A stretch of 64,000 bases of DNA. Origin: Aquabacterium lacunae (GTDB taxonomy: Bacteria > Pseudomonadota > Gammaproteobacteria > Burkholderiales > Burkholderiaceae_C). Positions 2,496 through 10,543 of this stretch are shown one piece after another; position 1 is the first letter of the stretch; each line of letters opens with the position of its first letter. Position numbers and translations under genes: made by a program. The notes beneath the pieces were generated by a model. The model was not told the origin of the DNA. It ran no database searches and was given only the letters and a program-made list of their open reading frames with translations. Location: NCBI RefSeq assembly GCF_004310865.1, contig NZ_SIXI01000003.1, positions 124,001 to 188,000 on the forward strand, given 5' to 3'.

Positions 2496-3902
2496 TCAGT
2501 CCAGGAACTGATCCAGACACCAGCGCCCAGCGTCCTGGCTGGCCTGTCCCCCCCGAGGGTGCCACCCGAAGTGTCGCACCACCAGCGGCTCCCAGTACGG
2601 CGCGGCATGGTGCATCAGCACCGTGTGGTCCAGGTCTTCCGATTCGACAATGCCTGCCATGGGGTTCTGCAGCAACCAGTGCACCGCCCCCATGATGCTG
2701 CCCACCACCTGCAGGCTGGTGGCATTGTTGTGTGGCGCCAGTTCACGGGCTCGCGCCAGTGACAACTGCGAGCCGTACCAGCACGCGGGGTAGCGGTCAC
2801 TCAGCAACAACACGCCGAGTTCATCAACGCCATCCACTAGTTCGTCTTTCAGGACACGGGTGTGCGTCACGGCATCGCGGCTGCCATCGGCCAGCAGCTG
2901 CAGGCTGTCCGCCGCCTGGTCGCAAGGGTGGTAGGCGTAGTACACCGTGGGCCGGTAGTGCACCTGATCGCCGTGCTGCAACGTGAGCCAGGCCGCGATC
3001 GAGAAGGCCTCGTTGTGGCTGATCAGCCAGCCGCGCACCTCACCGGCCAATGGGGTGAAGGTTTTCACGCGGGTGTGCACCCCCAGTTGCTCGGCATACA
3101 CACCACTGCGGTCACCCTGGGCATGGCCATGCACGCGTTGCGCCCAGGGGCCATGGACTTCGTGTGTGCCCCAGCCCATCTCCACCGGCTGCAGGGCTTC
3201 AGCCACGAAGCCATCGACCGACCAGGTGTTCTGGAACTCGCCCGCGGCACGGGCCTGCGGGCTGAACTGCGTGTCGCGCTCGGACACCTGGATCACACGC
3301 ACGCCCAGCGTTTCGGCCAGCAGGGCCCACTCGCGGCGCCCCACCGGAGCCGCCCTGACCGGCAGGTGCAGCCGGGCCATGTGCAACAAGGCTTCCTTGA
3401 CGAAGATGGACACCATGCCGGGGTTGGCACCATGCGCCACAACGGCCGTGGGCATGGGCACCGTGGCCGCGCGCTGGGCCTGCTGCCGATCGATCACCGC
3501 CGCGCGCATGCGGTAGTTGGTGTTGGCGCCGTCGGCCAGTTCGCCGTCCTGGTAGGCCCAGGGGTCGATGCAGGTGTCCAGGTACCAGGCCCCACGGGCC
3601 TGCGCCCAGCTCAACACCGTCAGGCTGTCGATGGAGGTGGCCAGGTTCAGCACCAGCGCGCCAGGGCCCACCCAGGGGGTCAGCAGTGCTTCGTGGTTGT
3701 GCGCCTCGATGCGGGCCTGTTGCCAGCCAAAGCCATGGGCTTGTGCCACAGCCACCTGGTCGGGCGCCATGCGCTCGTCGATCACGTGCACGGGCATCTG
3801 AGCAAAGCACTGACGCAACAGGGGCGACAAGGCCTGAGCGATGTTGCCAAAGCCCATGATCAGCACGGAACGCAGTTCAGCCGGCTGGCTGTGGCGCCTC
3901 AT
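2496..3902 (-). CDS. hss: Homospermidine synthase
   Basis: A 468-residue NAD-dependent enzyme of the saccharopine-dehydrogenase fold that makes sym-homospermidine from two putrescines (or from spermidine plus putrescine). The N-terminal Rossmann motif GFGNIAQ is at about 16-22. Family signatures YLDTCIDPW and AHGANPGMVSIFVKEAL are clear, and the length matches bacterial Hss (about 470). The start codon overlaps the stop of the upstream SMR-type transporter by 4 bp, so polyamine synthesis and a small exporter are coupled. It probably supplies homospermidine as the organism's polyamine. Confidence 0.9.
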   Translation of the reverse strand: MRRHSQPAELRSVLIMGFGNIAQALSPLLRQCFAQMPVHVIDERMAPDQVAVAQAHGFGWQQARIEAHNHEALLTPWVGPGALVLNLATSIDSLTVLSWAQARGAWYLDTCIDPWAYQDGELADGANTNYRMRAAVIDRQQAQRAATVPMPTAVVAHGANPGMVSIFVKEALLHMARLHLPVRAAPVGRREWALLAETLGVRVIQVSERDTQFSPQARAAGEFQNTWSVDGFVAEALQPVEMGWGTHEVHGPWAQRVHGHAQGDRSGVYAEQLGVHTRVKTFTPLAGEVRGWLISHNEAFSIAAWLTLQHGDQVHYRPTVYYAYHPCDQAADSLQLLADGSRDAVTHTRVLKDELVDGVDELGVLLLSDRYPACWYGSQLSLARARELAPHNNATSLQVVGSIMGAVHWLLQNPMAGIVESEDLDHTVLMHHAAPYWEPLVVRHFGWHPRGGQASQDAGRWCLDQFLD

Positions 3903-4228
3903 GCCTCACGCCCCACATTCATCACCAGCACGGCCGCCAGGGCCAGGGCCACGCCTGCGCCTTCACGCCAGGTGAAGGGCTCCTTGAACACCACCACCCC
4001 CAGACCCGCCACGATGATCAGGGTGGCCACCGAATAGAAGACGGCCACGGTGGCCAGGTTGTGCTGCTGCATCAGCAGGTACCAGGCGAAGGCTGGAGAG
4101 CCATAACACAAGGCACCCAGTGCAAACTGCCAGGAGTTCAGGCCAGCGCCGGACGCAGCCAGCTTGATGAGGTAATCACCCACCACGGTGAGCAAGGTGG
4201 CCACGGCGAGCCAGAAAAGTGTGGTCAT
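3899..4228 (-). CDS. Small multidrug resistance/EamA-like transporter
   Basis: A 109-residue, almost wholly hydrophobic protein with four predicted transmembrane helices. It resembles the half-size EmrE/QacE and DMT families: an acidic residue sits in helix 1 (VVGDYLIKLAAS), and helix 4 is LALAAVLVMNV. Such proteins act as dimers in the inner membrane, exchanging protons for cationic compounds. It is first in an overlapping pair with homospermidine synthase, so polyamine or polyamine-like export is a reasonable inference, not a demonstrated function. The catalytic Glu of EmrE (helix 1) appears as Asp here. Confidence 0.75.
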   Translation of the reverse strand: MTTLFWLAVATLLTVVGDYLIKLAASGAGLNSWQFALGALCYGSPAFAWYLLMQQHNLATVAVFYSVATLIIVAGLGVVVFKEPFTWREGAGVALALAAVLVMNVGREA

Positions 4229-4332: not shown

Positions 4333-5604
4333 TCATGCTGCCAGCAGGGCATCGACGCTGTCGATGCCCCGCGTGGCTTCGCGCCACCATTGCGAGAACG
4401 AATGGCAAGGGCGCGCCACGTGGGGAAACAATGCCGTGGGCGGCAGGCAGTCGGCCAGTGTCGGCAGCCAGGGCTTGAGGTGCGGATCGGTCACCGACAC
4501 CACACGGCGCGCACCGCGCAGCGCGTCCTTGACCTGGGCCAGGCTGCCATGCCAGCGCAGCGGGGTCAGCCCGGCCATGCGCTCGCCCACGAATTGCCAT
4601 CGCACCGGGCTCCAGGGCCGTGCCTGGTGGAACTCCGACAGGCACATCGCCACCACCACCGTGTCGGCCGTCACCACCGAGGGCAAGGGGCCCAGGCACC
4701 AGGGGTGCACCAGGAACACTTCGCGACCCGCCACGGCCTGCGCATCGGGGGGCGCAAAGCCCCAGGAAGTCGGAGGAGCGGTCATCAGGTCGGGCGGCTG
4801 CAGGGGCTCAACCACCGGGTCGAAACGCCGCTGGCCTGTGAAGGGCTGCAGTGGCCTGACGTGACGCGCCATGCGGTCCAGCGTGTCGTAATCGGTGTCG
4901 ATCACGGTGCCCGGGCTGTGCCATTCGGCAGGTGCGTACCGGGCCACGTTCTCGGCATTGAACAGGTAAGGCTTGTGGCTGCCGGTGCCGGCCACCCATT
5001 GCCAACTCAGGTGGTTGCTGGCCAGGTCACCGTCCAGCAGGTGGGCGTACAGCCAGTCGGCCCCCGCGCGCCAGTGCACCTTGCGCACATGCACCACGTA
5101 ACTGGCCAGCCACATGCGGGCGTGGTTGTGCAGGTAGCCTGTGCGGTACAGCGTGCGCACGGCCTGGTCGATCACCGGCACGCCCGTGCAGCCCTGCACG
5201 ATGTCGGCAGGCAGCTCGCGCACGTAGGCGGCATCGGGCAAGGGGCCTTCGTGAATGGACTGGAAGATGCCTTGTCCACGGTGCGCCCAGGCGTGGTGAA
5301 AGAAGGCCCGCCAGCCCAGTTCGTACACCCACTTGTGCTGCACGTCCAGCGGGTGCCGTGCATGCACCCTGGCCAGTGCCTCGTGCAGGCTCAGGAACCC
5401 GTGCGTGATGTAGGGCGACAGACCCGACACCGCGCCATTCAGCGCATTGCGTGTGCGGGCGTAGGCACCGGGGTGCACCTGGGCCAACCGCGCCAGAGCG
5501 GCCTCGCGCGTGGGCGCCCAGGCACCCGACGCCAGGGAAGCCACCGTGGCATGCTCGGCGTGCTCGGTGGGGTCCAGAAGGCTGGGCTGGTGCATCTTGC
5601 GCAT
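4333..5604 (-). CDS. Photolyase/cryptochrome-family protein with leading FAD domain
   Basis: 423 residues. Residues about 25-265 are a photolyase-type FAD-binding domain: GLSPYITHGFLS, ELGWRAFFHHAW, GVPVIDQAVRTL, TGYLHNHARMW, then LASNHLSWQWVAGTG. The usual N-terminal alpha/beta antenna domain is missing; the protein starts directly in the FAD half. The last 140 residues (from about REVFLVHPW) read as an alpha/beta segment, including RWQFVGERM and RRVVSVTDPHLKPWL, as if the antenna-like half had been moved to the C-terminus. DNA repair or blue-light sensing is possible. The missing chromophore domain makes a classical CPD photolyase assignment unsure. Confidence 0.75.
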   Translation of the reverse strand: MRKMHQPSLLDPTEHAEHATVASLASGAWAPTREAALARLAQVHPGAYARTRNALNGAVSGLSPYITHGFLSLHEALARVHARHPLDVQHKWVYELGWRAFFHHAWAHRGQGIFQSIHEGPLPDAAYVRELPADIVQGCTGVPVIDQAVRTLYRTGYLHNHARMWLASYVVHVRKVHWRAGADWLYAHLLDGDLASNHLSWQWVAGTGSHKPYLFNAENVARYAPAEWHSPGTVIDTDYDTLDRMARHVRPLQPFTGQRRFDPVVEPLQPPDLMTAPPTSWGFAPPDAQAVAGREVFLVHPWCLGPLPSVVTADTVVVAMCLSEFHQARPWSPVRWQFVGERMAGLTPLRWHGSLAQVKDALRGARRVVSVTDPHLKPWLPTLADCLPPTALFPHVARPCHSFSQWWREATRGIDSVDALLAA

Positions 5605-5793
5605 GTGGGCTCCTTTCTGCGAAGTCTAGGGGCCTGCAAGACACATCAGGCGCACGGCGTGCCACGCACACAGCGCACGGGCTTGCACAAACCGTGGACA
5701 CGCCCCCGGGCAACTCCAAGGTGCCGACCTTGAGGTCCTGACGGATAATTGCGAGATCAAACGCCAACCGGCCAAGCCCTTGAATCCACCGCC

Positions 5794-6405
5794 ATGGGAC
5801 ACGCGAAAGACGAAGACCTCGGGCTGAAGGACGCCTGCCTTCAGGCAGCGCGGGAGTCCATCGCCGAGCACGGTGTGGAACGGCTCAGCCTGCGAGAAGT
5901 GGCTCGGCGTCTGGGGGTTTCGCACCAGGCGCCCTACCGGCACTTCCCGTCTCGCGACCACCTGCTGGCCGAAGTGATCCGGCAGTGCTTTCAGGACTTC
6001 GCCTGCTTCCTGGACACCCGCGACAAGCAACCATCGCCTGACCAGGACCTCAATTGCCTGGGCACCCGCTACCTGCAGTTCGCGATGGAGCGCCCACTTG
6101 AGTACCGGCTGATGTTCGGCACCCCCTGGCCCGAACCGGCTGAAGAGGTGGGGCTGGTGCGCGATGCCCTGCACGCCTTCAACATCCTGCGCAGTGACCT
6201 CCAGGCCATGCATGGCGAGGGCGCCGAGGTGCAAGCCCAGGTCGATCTGGACGCCATGATGATCTGGTCATCGATGCACGGCCTGGCCTCGATCCTGCAA
6301 TCGAGCGCGGTGCGGCACCTGGACCTCGCGCCCGGGGTGCCGCCGCAGGTGCCTGCCTACATCATGGCGCGCATGCGCTCATTGCTGACAGGCACCGCGC
6401 ACTGA
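5794..6405 (+). CDS. TetR/AcrR family transcriptional regulator (WHG-type C-domain)
   Basis: 203 residues. The N-terminal TetR HTH reads LSLREVARRLGVSHQAPYRHF at about 35-55. The C-terminal half contains MFGTPWPE, typical of the WHG subfamily of TetR regulators. The ATG at 5794 is used; an upstream in-frame start at 5749 gives an unconvincing leader. It ends 17 bp from the convergent end of the RND efflux operon, making it a candidate regulator of that operon. A GATAAT -10-like hexamer lies at 5744-5749. No copy of the GTTGACA palindrome is visible in front of it, so autoregulation through that site is not supported. Confidence 0.85.
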   Translation: MGHAKDEDLGLKDACLQAARESIAEHGVERLSLREVARRLGVSHQAPYRHFPSRDHLLAEVIRQCFQDFACFLDTRDKQPSPDQDLNCLGTRYLQFAMERPLEYRLMFGTPWPEPAEEVGLVRDALHAFNILRSDLQAMHGEGAEVQAQVDLDAMMIWSSMHGLASILQSSAVRHLDLAPGVPPQVPAYIMARMRSLLTGTAH

Positions 6406-6422: not shown

Positions 6423-7478
6423 TCAATCCACTTCGGAGGGCGTCGCGCACTCGGCGTTTTCGGCGTTGGCCGAACAACGCGCTTTCTTCAGCAGGTTGAG
6501 GGTGCGCTTCGCGTACAGCCCCTCCTGCGCGCCCATCAGTCGGCCCTGGCGCAAGGCGTCGACATAAGCGGGCAGCACCTCGGGAGACACCTCGACCCAC
6601 GCACGGCCCGGAATGCCCGCTTCAGCCCTCTGGATGTTCTGGACCTGACGGTCAAACTGCGCCAGCCAATGGGCGCGTGAAGCCTCGCCAAAGCCGGCTG
6701 GCAACTGATCGGCCCGGAACACCAGTTGCACGGTGGGGAACATGGCCGGCACGCGAATCACCGCCCCCTGAGTGCCCATGCCCTTGCCCAGCTCGAACGG
6801 CTTGTAGGTGATGGCTGGCAGGTGGATCATGTCCACCAGACCGTTGTTGAACTTGGTGCCCACGCTGGCAATGTCCACGGACACGGGCTGCGCGCCCAAT
6901 CGCTGGATCAACAGGGCCTGTGGCCGGTCCTGATCGAACACGCCAATGCGTTTGCCTGCCAGCTGGTCGATGCGGGTGGCGGTACGGTCTTTGACCATGG
7001 GGTATGCAGCGCCCACGGGCAGCATGCCCCCTATCTCGTGCTGGCCTTCGCGCATCAGTCGGGCCCCCTGCGGACTGGACAAGGCCGTGATGACACGCCG
7101 CAGCACCTCCTGACTGGCCGCCATGTCCACCTTGCCCGCCTTGACCACCAGGGCCGAGCCCATGCTGTCGATCGAGCCGCTGACCGCATTGAACACACGC
7201 GCACGAAAGCCCGTGACCACCAGGCCTGCACACTGGCCGGCGCGGTAGTCTTCCATGGCCACCCGTTCGTCGGTGTAAGGCCGCAAGTCAAAGGGCATGC
7301 CCAGACGGGCCATGTGCAGGCTGTGGTCCAGCACGAGGTTGTAGACATCACCCGACTTGCCCAGGATGTCCCACACACAGAACTGGGGTCGATCGGACGG
7401 CGTCTGGGCCTGGACCGAACCCCACGTGGCCAGGGTCATGCAGAGGGCGCCAAAGGCGCGAATGGCAGAGGTCTTCAA
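6423..7478 (-). CDS. AdeT-like putative solute-binding protein of an RND operon
   Basis: 351 residues with an N-terminal signal peptide ending about VQAQ. The motifs FCVWDILGKSGDVYN, YTDERVAMEDYRAGQC and GLVVTGF match the AdeT1/AdeT2-type 'putative solute-binding protein' family, related to TRAP-type periplasmic binding proteins. The start is a TTG at 7478: AAGGAG lies 7 bases upstream and the TTG overlaps the RND pump stop codon (TTGA). It is therefore the last gene of the efflux operon and presumably periplasmic. AdeT proteins have been linked to drug resistance in Acinetobacter; the role here is inferred from context. Confidence 0.8.
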   Translation of the reverse strand: MKTSAIRAFGALCMTLATWGSVQAQTPSDRPQFCVWDILGKSGDVYNLVLDHSLHMARLGMPFDLRPYTDERVAMEDYRAGQCAGLVVTGFRARVFNAVSGSIDSMGSALVVKAGKVDMAASQEVLRRVITALSSPQGARLMREGQHEIGGMLPVGAAYPMVKDRTATRIDQLAGKRIGVFDQDRPQALLIQRLGAQPVSVDIASVGTKFNNGLVDMIHLPAITYKPFELGKGMGTQGAVIRVPAMFPTVQLVFRADQLPAGFGEASRAHWLAQFDRQVQNIQRAEAGIPGRAWVEVSPEVLPAYVDALRQGRLMGAQEGLYAKRTLNLLKKARCSANAENAECATPSEVD

Positions 7479-10400
7479 CGAACTTCTCCTTCTTGAGGGG
7501 GCGCCACCTTGAACCAGGCGGCATAGAGCGCGGGCACGAACACCAGCGTGAGCGCGGTGGCCACCACCAGGCCACCCATGATGGCAATGGCCATGGGCCC
7601 CCAGAACACGCTGCGGCTGAGCGGGATCATGGCCAGGATGGCTGCAGCAGCGGTCAGCACCACGGGACGTGCGCGGCGAACCGTCGCATCGACAATGGCC
7701 GCCCAGGCCTGCTCGCCGGCCTGAATGTCCTGATCGATCTGGTCGACCAGGATGACCGAGTTGCGCATGATCATGCCGCCCAGGGCGATGACACCGAGCA
7801 GGGCCACAAAGCCGAAAGGTGACTGGAACACCAGCAAGGCGGGCACCACGCCAATGAGTCCGAGCGGGGCGGTGAGGAACACCAGCCACATGCGCGAGAA
7901 ACTCTGCAGCTGAACCATCAGGAAAAACAGCATCACCAGGAACATGACCGGGAACACCACGAACAGGGCCTGGTTGGCTTTGCTGCTTTCCTCGACGGCA
8001 CCGCCCACTTCGATGCGATGCCCCGCTGCCAGCCCTTGCTGGATGGGCTCCAGCATCGGTGCGATGCGGGCCGAGGCAAACGGCCCCTGCACCCCATCGA
8101 CCAGGTCGGCGCGCACCGTGATGGTGGTCTCGCGGTTGCGCCGCTGCATGACCGGCTCATCGAAGCCCGACTCCACCCGGGCCACCTGGGCCAGCGAGAC
8201 CGAGCCGCCCTGCGGCGACACCAGCTGGATGTCCTGCAGGCGTTCAAGCCGCAGCCGCTCGGCCCCTTCGGCCCGCACGACCACGTCCACCAGTTCTTCG
8301 CCACGGCGCATCTGCGTGACCGGTGCACCTTGCAACACGGTCTGCAGCACCTGGCTGACGTCGCTGCTGGCCAGCCCCAGTTGCGCCAGCTTGTGGGTGT
8401 CCAGCTGCACCCGCTGCACGCGGGCTTGCTCGCCCCAGTCCAGCTGCACGTCACGCACCAGCGGGCTGCGGGCCACCACCTGCCGCACGGCCTCGGCTGC
8501 GCGGCGCACTTCGTTCACATCCGGGCCCACCACACGGAACTGCACCGGAAAGCCCACCGGTGGCCCGAACTCCAGCCGCGCCACCCGCCCGCGCAAGGCG
8601 GGGAAGAGCTCGTTGCGCTCGAACAGTGCCATCAGTCGGGCGCGCACGGCTTCACGGGCCTGCAGGTCGCGGGTCATGATCACGAACTGGGCATACCCGG
8701 GGTTGGGCAGCTCAGGGGCCAGCGACAGGTAAAAGCGTGGCGAGCCCGCCCCGGTGTAGGCCGTGAAGAAGGCCACATCGGGATCCTTGATCAGCAGCTG
8801 CTCGAGCTTGCGCACCTCGGCCTCGGTGGCCTGGAAGGCGGCCCCCTCGCGCAGGCGCAGTTCGACCAGCAACTCCGGGCGCGAGGCCGTGGGGAAGAAC
8901 TGCTGCTGCACCCAGCCCATGCCCACCAAGGCCAGCACAAAGGCCACACCTGTGCCCCCCAGCACCCACCAGCGGCGCTGCACAGCCACCGTCACCCACC
9001 GACGGAGGCGACGCAGGATGGGCCGGTCATGCGGGTCCTGATGGACATGCCCCAGCGTGGCAGGCAAGAGCTTGACGCCCAGGTAAGGCGTGAACACCAC
9101 CGCCACCAGCCACGAGACCATCAGGGCCAGGCCCACGATCCAGAAGATGCCGCCAGCGTATTCCCCTGCGGTGGACTTGGCAAAGCCCACAGGCATGAAG
9201 CCGGCGACCGTGACCAGCGTGCCCGTGAGCATGGGAAATGCCGTGGAGGTGTAGGCGAAGGTGGCTGCCCGCACGCGGTCCCATCCCTGTTCGATCTTCA
9301 CCACCATCATCTCGACGGCGATGATGGCGTCGTCCACCAGCAGGCCCAGGGCGATGATCAGGGCGCCCAGCGAGATGCGGTCGAGGCTCCAGTCCATCAG
9401 GTGCATCACGATGGCCACCAGGCCCAGCACCAGCGGGATGGAGGCGGCCACCACGATGCCGGTGCGCCACCCCAGGAACAAGAAGCACACGGCCAGCACG
9501 ATGGCCAGGGCTTCGAGGAAGGCCCGCTCGAACTCCCACACCGAGGCCTTGACCACGCTGGGCTGATCGGCGTAGCGACTCAGGGTCACGCCCTGAGGCA
9601 GATTGCGCTGAAACTGGGTCACCTCGCGCTGCAAGGCCTCTCCCAGGTGCTGGATGTTGGCCTGGCGCATCATGGTCACCCCGATGGCCAGCGCGGGCTG
9701 CCCCTGGTGGCGCACCGTGAAGGTGGGGGGGCTTTCGTAGCCAGGTTCGACCGTGGCCACATCGCCCAGCCGAACCACCCGGGGCCCGACAGGCACCTGC
9801 ACGTCACGGACATCTTCCCAGCGTCGGAAGCCGCCCGACACCAGCACGTGCACACGGTCTTCCGCCGTTTCCTGAAAGCCCGACGGGGTGACCTGGTTCT
9901 GGCGGGCCAGCGCCTGCATGATCGACTGAAGTGACACGCCCTGCGCAGCCAGCCGCTGGCTGGAGAAGGTCACCAGCACCTGCTGCCGCTGCTTGCCCAG
10001 GATGTTGACCTTGGCCACATCGGGCACCGACTGCAGCCGCCGCTTGAGTTGCTCGGCCAGCTCCTGCAGTTCGGCCCCACCCAGGTCGGGAGACTGCAGC
10101 GCATAGAGCGTGGTGTACACATCGGTGTACTCGTCATTGAAAAAAGGGCCACGGATCTCGGGGGGCAATTGCCCACGGATGTCGGACACCTTCTTGCGTG
10201 CCTGGTACCAGATGGCTTCGAGCTCGGCCCTGGACTGGCGGCCCTTCATCCACAGGGTCAAGCCACCGTAGCCCTGTCGCGAGAAGCTGCGGATGTTGTC
10301 GATGCCCCCGATGTCCTGCAAGGCCTGTTCGATGGGATTGATGACGTGGTCGTGCATTTCGCGCGTGGTGGCACCAGGCCAGGCCACGACCACCGTCATG

Positions 10401-10543
10401 GAGGGCACGTTGAACTGCGGGTCTTCCGACTGACCCAGCTGGAAAAACGAGGCCACGCCACCGACGAGGGTGGCGATGATCAGGAACAGCACCATGGCCG
10501 GGTGCGACACCGCCCATGCCGACAGGTTGAAACGCGGGTTCAT
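7475..10543 (-). CDS. RND efflux transporter, inner-membrane pump (HAE-1/AcrB-like)
   Basis: A 1022-residue protein with full RND architecture: an N-terminal helix, a large periplasmic loop, helices 2-6 including the proton-relay motif GLLVDDAIIAVE, a second periplasmic loop, and the C-terminal helix bundle ending VFVPALYAAWF. It uses the proton-motive force to push substrates through a tripartite complex. It overlaps the adaptor gene upstream and the AdeT-like gene downstream by 4 bp each. The length and the PGATTREMHDHVINPIEQAL signature resemble AcrB/MdtB-like drug pumps more than CusA metal pumps. The substrate is unknown. Confidence 0.92.
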   Translation of the reverse strand: MNPRFNLSAWAVSHPAMVLFLIIATLVGGVASFFQLGQSEDPQFNVPSMTVVVAWPGATTREMHDHVINPIEQALQDIGGIDNIRSFSRQGYGGLTLWMKGRQSRAELEAIWYQARKKVSDIRGQLPPEIRGPFFNDEYTDVYTTLYALQSPDLGGAELQELAEQLKRRLQSVPDVAKVNILGKQRQQVLVTFSSQRLAAQGVSLQSIMQALARQNQVTPSGFQETAEDRVHVLVSGGFRRWEDVRDVQVPVGPRVVRLGDVATVEPGYESPPTFTVRHQGQPALAIGVTMMRQANIQHLGEALQREVTQFQRNLPQGVTLSRYADQPSVVKASVWEFERAFLEALAIVLAVCFLFLGWRTGIVVAASIPLVLGLVAIVMHLMDWSLDRISLGALIIALGLLVDDAIIAVEMMVVKIEQGWDRVRAATFAYTSTAFPMLTGTLVTVAGFMPVGFAKSTAGEYAGGIFWIVGLALMVSWLVAVVFTPYLGVKLLPATLGHVHQDPHDRPILRRLRRWVTVAVQRRWWVLGGTGVAFVLALVGMGWVQQQFFPTASRPELLVELRLREGAAFQATEAEVRKLEQLLIKDPDVAFFTAYTGAGSPRFYLSLAPELPNPGYAQFVIMTRDLQAREAVRARLMALFERNELFPALRGRVARLEFGPPVGFPVQFRVVGPDVNEVRRAAEAVRQVVARSPLVRDVQLDWGEQARVQRVQLDTHKLAQLGLASSDVSQVLQTVLQGAPVTQMRRGEELVDVVVRAEGAERLRLERLQDIQLVSPQGGSVSLAQVARVESGFDEPVMQRRNRETTITVRADLVDGVQGPFASARIAPMLEPIQQGLAAGHRIEVGGAVEESSKANQALFVVFPVMFLVMLFFLMVQLQSFSRMWLVFLTAPLGLIGVVPALLVFQSPFGFVALLGVIALGGMIMRNSVILVDQIDQDIQAGEQAWAAIVDATVRRARPVVLTAAAAILAMIPLSRSVFWGPMAIAIMGGLVVATALTLVFVPALYAAWFKVAPPQEGEVR

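Follow-up and report, generated by a model that had tools for sequence, protein, structure and literature searches.

A probable photolyase of swapped domain order in Aquabacterium lacunae

The gene and its domains

The window, the whole stretch of DNA that we analyzed, comprises 64,000 nucleotides of the Aquabacterium lacunae genome; all positions are counted from its first letter. At 4333–5604 on the minus strand lies an open reading frame of 423 codons, seen in our list of open reading frames and in orthologues, with its ATG start at 5604 and its stop codon at 4333–4335. A Shine-Dalgarno-like GGAG, read from the sequence, lies 5 nt upstream of the ATG (5610–5613, minus strand). The encoded protein has a FAD-binding catalytic domain (aa 28–223, ends approximate; 4936–5523, minus strand), a linker placed by alignment to relatives (aa 224–293; 4726–4935, minus strand), and a C-terminal alpha/beta domain (aa 294–412; 4369–4725, minus strand), which we interpret as a relocated antenna-type domain on the basis of models, VIA-align, and hhalign. 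Residues 1–24 have a pLDDT below 50 in the AlphaFold2 model.

The original prediction held that the reading frame starts inside the FAD-binding domain and has no N-terminal antenna domain. Pfam, phmmer, and the structural model all agree with this. Pfam places FAD_binding_7 (PF03441) at aa 92–219 (E = 8.7e-28, 97.5 bits against a cut-off of 27), although this match spans only positions 1–131 of the 203 in the profile, and finds no DNA_photolyase (antenna, PF00875) domain in the protein. In phmmer, aa 31–221 match residues 207–411 of the class I photolyase 1tez (E = 2.4e-23), that is, its catalytic half only; Foldseek also supports the catalytic domain. Matches in NCBIfam are all below threshold, including that to crypto_DASH (93.1 bits against a cut-off of 317).

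Divergent from this gene is a gene for a TetR-type regulator (5749–6405, plus strand; Pfam TetR_N and TetR_C_33), and further on come a gene of the AdeT-like solute-binding kind and one for an RND-type efflux permease (7475–10543; 64% to Aquabacterium olei). The downstream neighbors encode a saccharopine-dehydrogenase-like enzyme (2496–3902, minus strand) and a small EamA/DMT-like protein below the Pfam cut-offs (3899–4228, minus strand). Neither of the two shows a link to repair.

Relatives and place in the family

The gene is conserved and not a chance reading frame, since 47 of 399 genomes of the order (its own included) have a match at E ≤ 1e-35, many of them over most of the length. Among 61 genomes searched (its own and 60 relatives), five besides its own carry relatives (L005–L009) with 49–54% identity over most of the length. 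Conserved orthologues rule out a truncated class I photolyase or a pseudogene. A phage origin was rejected as well: none of 37 pattern matches in viral contigs was confirmed, and ten phage records reach 28–31% identity over 37–51% of the query. Compared with plasmid records, the 16S rRNA of the genome comes closest to Mitsuaria sp. (96.5%) and Comamonas (93.2%), and on this basis we speak of Burkholderiales as the window's order. Plasmid records with relatives come from Deinococcus, Persicobacter, and Ruegeria, among others. Two relatives, L114 and L130, have in-frame stop codons (TAG in G211, TGA in G421) and are either decaying genes or affected by assembly errors.

We use “alpha-type” as a working label for the next inverted group, which we take to be NewPHL. 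It is very common, with at least 586 confirmed stretches, of which we kept the best 80; among the matches listed, many, though not all, are from Alphaproteobacteria, and two (L010 and L011) come from the window's own order. The window-branch set consists of the window protein and 30 of 32 relatives (L114, with its in-frame stop, and the truncated L120 were left out). For the alpha-type, 81 of 84 rows passed the motif cut.

Our tree of the FAD core contains 90 rows, 76 of them inverted (including 22 alpha-type) and 14 conventional. The inverted proteins form one group against the conventional ones (100/99), the alpha-type rows form a clade that leaves the window protein outside (100/99), and the window protein falls into a set of ten rows from its own order (100/92). 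These values have to be read with two warnings, that long branches meet and that the bootstrap had not settled. The position of the root within the inverted class is not stable. When the 14 conventional rows are included, the alpha-type branches first; when four long rows are removed it nests with the split clade, and in that tree the 17-row clade of split, Deinococcus, and fused proteins can be imposed at a cost of 2.07 log units (AU p = 0.469). In quick trees, the 17 rows are broken up when ten conventional rows are included and stand on one side of a branch with support of 100 when there are none.

The first part of the linker aligns with a segment that bears three Fe-S-type cysteines in relatives. 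This three-cysteine motif occurs in all three Deinococcus rows, seven of the 11 split rows, and three of seven further fused rows (L149–L151), and the column of the fourth cysteine holds a cysteine in three, ten, and three rows of the same groups. The motif is absent from all 31 window-branch rows and all 22 alpha-type rows; the window protein has none of these three cysteines, no C..C..C motif, and a valine at the place of the fourth. The window protein is thus a member of a branch of Burkholderiales proteins, devoid of Fe-S cysteines and separate from the alpha-type (NewPHL-like) clade.

Split two-gene forms

Five of the matches within the order are short open frames of 259–306 aa, with the alpha/beta domain as a separate open frame directly behind. 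Two adjacent genes of this kind, FAD gene first, are present in 11 distinct genomes of the same phylum (G234, G202, G161, G264, G122, G450, G800, G806, G922, G1157, and G860; loci L144–L148, L153, L159, L162, and L167–L169). Two further short-frame genomes of the order, G393 and G324, in which the frame is near a contig end, are counted separately from these 11. Measured from the end of the FAD stop codon, the closest start codon for the alpha/beta protein is at −4 in seven genomes (ATGA or GTGA, a 4-nt overlap of start and stop), at −1 in two, at −8 in one, and at +8 in one. The FAD frames end 3–10 residues past the same LF pair. With 11 genomes and junctions within these limits, sequencing error was rejected as the source of the split forms.

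On the tree, fused forms stand among split ones and vice versa. A single clade of the 11 split rows, a group that we named after having seen the tree, is rejected (AU p = 0.0096), and hence fusion or fission has probably happened more than once. Given the two-gene relatives with the FAD gene first, and the interleaving of fused and split forms, the swapped domain order may simply be the order of an operon. Most simply, a FAD gene would have been followed by an alpha/beta gene, and their products could be fused as they stood.

One could also argue for a more far-reaching scenario, in which the inverted photolyases arose from a translationally coupled two-gene photolyase and have repeatedly changed back and forth between the two states; the FAD protein (about 250 aa) and the alpha/beta protein (about 125 aa) of the two-gene form would assemble into one enzyme. 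In that case the order in the fused proteins would simply be that of the operon, and two independent fusions of once separate proteins would have given rise to the conventional and the inverted photolyases. We put this forward tentatively and regard it as rather doubtful.

Active site and proposed function

Residues were mapped by a phmmer alignment to 1owl. At the site that binds cyclobutane pyrimidine dimers (CPDs), the window protein keeps R52, E95, W98, N160, M164, and W203, and R350 is replaced by H161. N160 and M164 are part of a GYLHNHARMW motif (aa 156–165; 5110–5139, minus strand) and correspond to N349 and M353 of the PCC 6301 enzyme. Equivalents of E95, W98, N160, and W203 are found in all 30 relatives of the branch and of M164 in 28 of them. 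Of the tryptophans of the electron chain, W201 and W178 are kept, and the third (W314) has become D124. A second motif, DGDLASNHLSWQW (aa 191–203; 4996–5034, minus strand), contains the FAD contacts D191, D193, and N197 as well as W201 and W203. Ten of the 13 FAD residues named in a figure legend of PMC9426592 are identical in the window protein; the legend gives T346 where the 1owl chain has W.

The window protein is probably a swapped-order photolyase, with a FAD domain followed by an antenna-type domain, that repairs cyclobutane dimers with light and whose domain order may come from a two-gene operon. The architecture is well supported and the function inferred; photorepair of cyclobutane dimers is the most likely activity. 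FAD would be photoreduced via a tryptophan dyad (W201 and W178). A flipped-out cyclobutane dimer would dock on E95, W98, N160, M164, and W203, and would be split by electron transfer from excited FADH−. The C-terminal domain would pack onto the FAD cleft and close it, probably without an antenna pigment. By analogy with NewPHL, single-stranded DNA may be the preferred substrate.

Could the protein instead be a cryptochrome light receptor or a signaling flavoprotein that has lost its repair activity? Its genome contains three PF03441 genes at E ≤ 0.001, and the other two fail the DASH cut-off: L001 resembles class I photolyases, and L002, on another contig, is a relative with two domains (PF00875 and PF03441). 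The absence of the third tryptophan from the electron chain would also fit a cryptochrome without repair. However, the CPD-site residues are kept in all or nearly all relatives of the branch, and Pfam reports no signaling domain in the window protein. Moreover, a second photolyase-type gene is found close to swapped or split genes elsewhere: of 62 distinct genomes or records, which cover 69 loci, 14 have an L002-like gene in the flanking sequence that was fetched (about 1.5 kb in most cases). They are from the window's order and from Bacteroidota and include both Persicobacter records. We consider a loss of repair activity unlikely. The loci with such a neighbor are L126, L130, L150, L144, L147, L146, L159, L164, L134, L132, L025, L140, L152, and L112. 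L002 itself (L002:679–2286) has WLNFRMRAM in place of the usual HN-RM motif.

The window protein is also related to split and fused forms that bear Fe-S cysteines, which raises the question whether it could be a (6-4) photolyase. For the Fe-S relatives Phr4 and Phr5 this activity has been proposed from their cysteines, as described in PMC9426592. In the window branch, however, the Fe-S motif is missing from every row. The asparagine and methionine that are kept in the window protein are of the CPD type. A (6-4) activity therefore seems improbable to us.

Origin of the C-terminal domain

The C-terminal 140 residues had been predicted to be an alpha/beta segment, to be compared with the alpha/beta domains of photolyases by structure prediction. 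AlphaFold2 returns such a segment both for the whole protein (pLDDT 75.3; 69 rows, the window protein and 68 kept of the best 80 related loci, rows of the distant alpha-type) and for aa 284–423 alone (pLDDT 78.0; 70 rows), with moderate confidence for the protein and its C-terminal domain. Strands at 295–299, 316–320, 349–352, and 367–371 alternate with helices in the whole-protein model. The antenna domain of photolyases has the same alternation of strands and helices, with a first helix that is missing here.

When VIA-align was applied to 1000 Foldseek chains for the isolated C-terminal model, ranks 1–9 were all photolyases or cryptochromes. The best match is 8ijy (Z 9.0, rmsd 2.3, 105 residues aligned, model 11–117 to chain 2–127), followed by 8a1h (8.6), 7ykn (8.5), and 3zxs (8.3). 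Only these four rows exceed a Z of 8; the other five lie at about 7.1–7.8, and a universal stress protein comes next with a Z of 7.1, about level with ranks 8–9. All nine matches start at chain residues 1–21, in the N-terminal antenna domain, and four of them end by residue 152, while the others extend further.

Alternatively, a Rossmann-like domain unrelated to that of photolyases could have been recruited separately at the C-terminus, and its likeness to the antenna domain would be convergence. The Foldseek list for the isolated domain has no match with E ≤ 0.001, and its first 50 entries consist mainly of alpha/beta proteins, Rossmann-like or other, with no photolyase among them. In addition, hhalign gives a weak direct link between the window-branch domain and the conventional domain (Prob 1.1, score 18.0, with shuffles reaching 15.7), so that the connection to the antenna domain needs intermediates. 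The intermediates, however, speak against convergence. Window-branch C-terminal domains (31 rows) align to a set of 17 alpha/beta sequences (11 split, three Deinococcus, and three fused) with Prob 98.1 and a score of 88.3 (best of 40 shuffles 18.9). This set in turn aligns to the conventional N-terminal domain (19 rows) with Prob 96.9 and a score of 65.3 (at most 16.1 in 40 shuffles). When taken alone, the 11 split sequences do so with Prob 95.7 and a score of 55.0 (shuffles ≤ 16.6). As a control we used an unrelated Rossmann domain, from the saccharopine dehydrogenase type protein of the same window; its scores are 20.8 against the 17-row set, 17.1 against the split sequences, and 12.7 against the window branch. 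The chain from the window branch via the split set to the conventional domain is therefore well above its controls.

Other links need more caution. The Deinococcus C-terminal domain (three rows) aligns to the antenna domain over 110 columns with Prob 97.5 and a score of 75.1 (best of 60 shuffles 26.5), but this small profile also reaches 35.5 (Prob 69, 33 columns) against the Rossmann control, a point in favor of convergence. Scores near 35 are hence not specific, which makes the links of the alpha-type C-terminal domains (32.4 and 34.9) unsafe on their own; the Deinococcus score is above the control and the alpha-type scores are not. Window-branch and alpha-type C-terminal domains score 21.3 against each other (shuffles up to 20.4), and Persicobacter C-terminal domains align to the conventional domain no better than shuffles, 5 of 60 of which score as high. 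The DNA_photolyase model of Pfam gives matches below its cut-off to one Deinococcus C-terminal domain, at E = 7e-4, and to one stand-alone domain of two, at 0.02; these count against convergence. With the profile chain and the structural ranking against it, convergence is very unlikely.

By profile score, the Deinococcus plasmid proteins L026, L141, and L142, which have Fe-S-type cysteines, possess the most antenna-like C-terminal domain; they are annotated merely as FAD-binding domain-containing proteins.

The best explanation for the C-terminal part of the window protein is that it is a photolyase alpha/beta domain in reduced form, located behind the FAD domain. Because the three strong hhalign alignments start at the first strand, we conclude that the domain moved whole. 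The original prediction had considered a circular permutation or a new C-terminal domain. A relocated photolyase alpha/beta domain is what we find, whereas a cut through the middle of a domain is not: whole domains are swapped. That the C-terminal half folds as something unrelated is contradicted by the model, VIA-align, and the hhalign chain. Our computations show the folds of both domains and their order. They also show that the protein retains most of its FAD and CPD-site residues, as well as two of the three chain tryptophans.

Comparison with known systems

An inverted topology, in which the C-terminal domain seals the FAD site, was reportedly described by Emmerich in 2020, together with CPD repair in single-stranded DNA. 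A swapped photolyase was expected to be new when the window was first read, but as a class swapped photolyases are already published. The NewPHL/SPL (short photolyase-like) class dates from 2020–2021 (Emmerich 2020; Xu 2021; named in PMC13274461 and PMC9426592), and NewPHL of D. shibae is described as having a mere tryptophan dyad (PMC8948257). In marine picocyanobacteria, a reverse-order Phr6 and a split pair, Phr4/Phr5, were reported in 2022, and Prochlorococcus Phr7 is described with a C-terminal Z-domain (Haney 2022, PMC9426592). Where they discuss the pair, the authors leave undecided whether it is a heterodimer or a frameshift (PMC9426592); a heterodimer had already been suggested in 2012 (PMC3441193). 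According to the same 2022 account, UV-C survival of a phr4 mutant was 20 to 30 times lower, phr4/phr5 protected E. coli from UV-C equally in light and dark, which counts against our reading, and the Fe-S cysteines of RS9916 Phr4 are C169, C254, C257, and C263 (PMC9426592).

Among the open-licence papers listed in our searches, none describes split or swapped photolyases from Burkholderiales or Deinococcus, and split forms are described for picocyanobacteria only. Our analysis adds the homology chain of the C-terminal domain, the branch without Fe-S cysteines, and the touching or overlapping split pairs in the window's phylum. The window gene extends a recent and little-studied class of photolyases to a Burkholderiales branch whose antenna-type domain comes last and which has no Fe-S motif. 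Among the relatives of the gene, conventional order, split genes, and swapped fusion form a graded series. This series allows each of the two photolyase modules to be studied by itself, and it bears on the nature of the ancestor of photolyases and cryptochromes.

With class I CPD photolyases (1tez, 1owl, and 1dnp) the window protein shares a homologous catalytic domain (the 1tez match being the best) and most FAD and CPD residues; unlike them, it has the opposite domain order, no N-terminal PF00875, and neither the last third of FAD_binding_7 nor the third chain tryptophan. With Phr6 and Phr4/Phr5 it shares the reverse domain order, and its relatives, too, are both fused and encoded by two adjacent open frames. 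Phr4 and Phr6, compared here by description, have four Fe-S cysteines each, whereas the window protein has none. NewPHL/SPL and Phr7 also have the FAD domain first, a short alpha/beta (Z-) domain last, and no N-terminal antenna domain. The window protein lies outside the alpha-type clade that we take for NewPHL (100/99), in a tree in which alpha-type rows stand in for the characterized D. shibae and M. mesophilicum proteins. Its FAD domain is about 40% identical to those of the alpha-type proteins L010 and L011, and the C-terminal domains are comparable by profiles only, and weakly. Like NewPHL, it has a tryptophan dyad instead of a triad and no Fe-S motif, and the alpha-type proteins, taken as NewPHL, group with the window branch against conventional photolyases.
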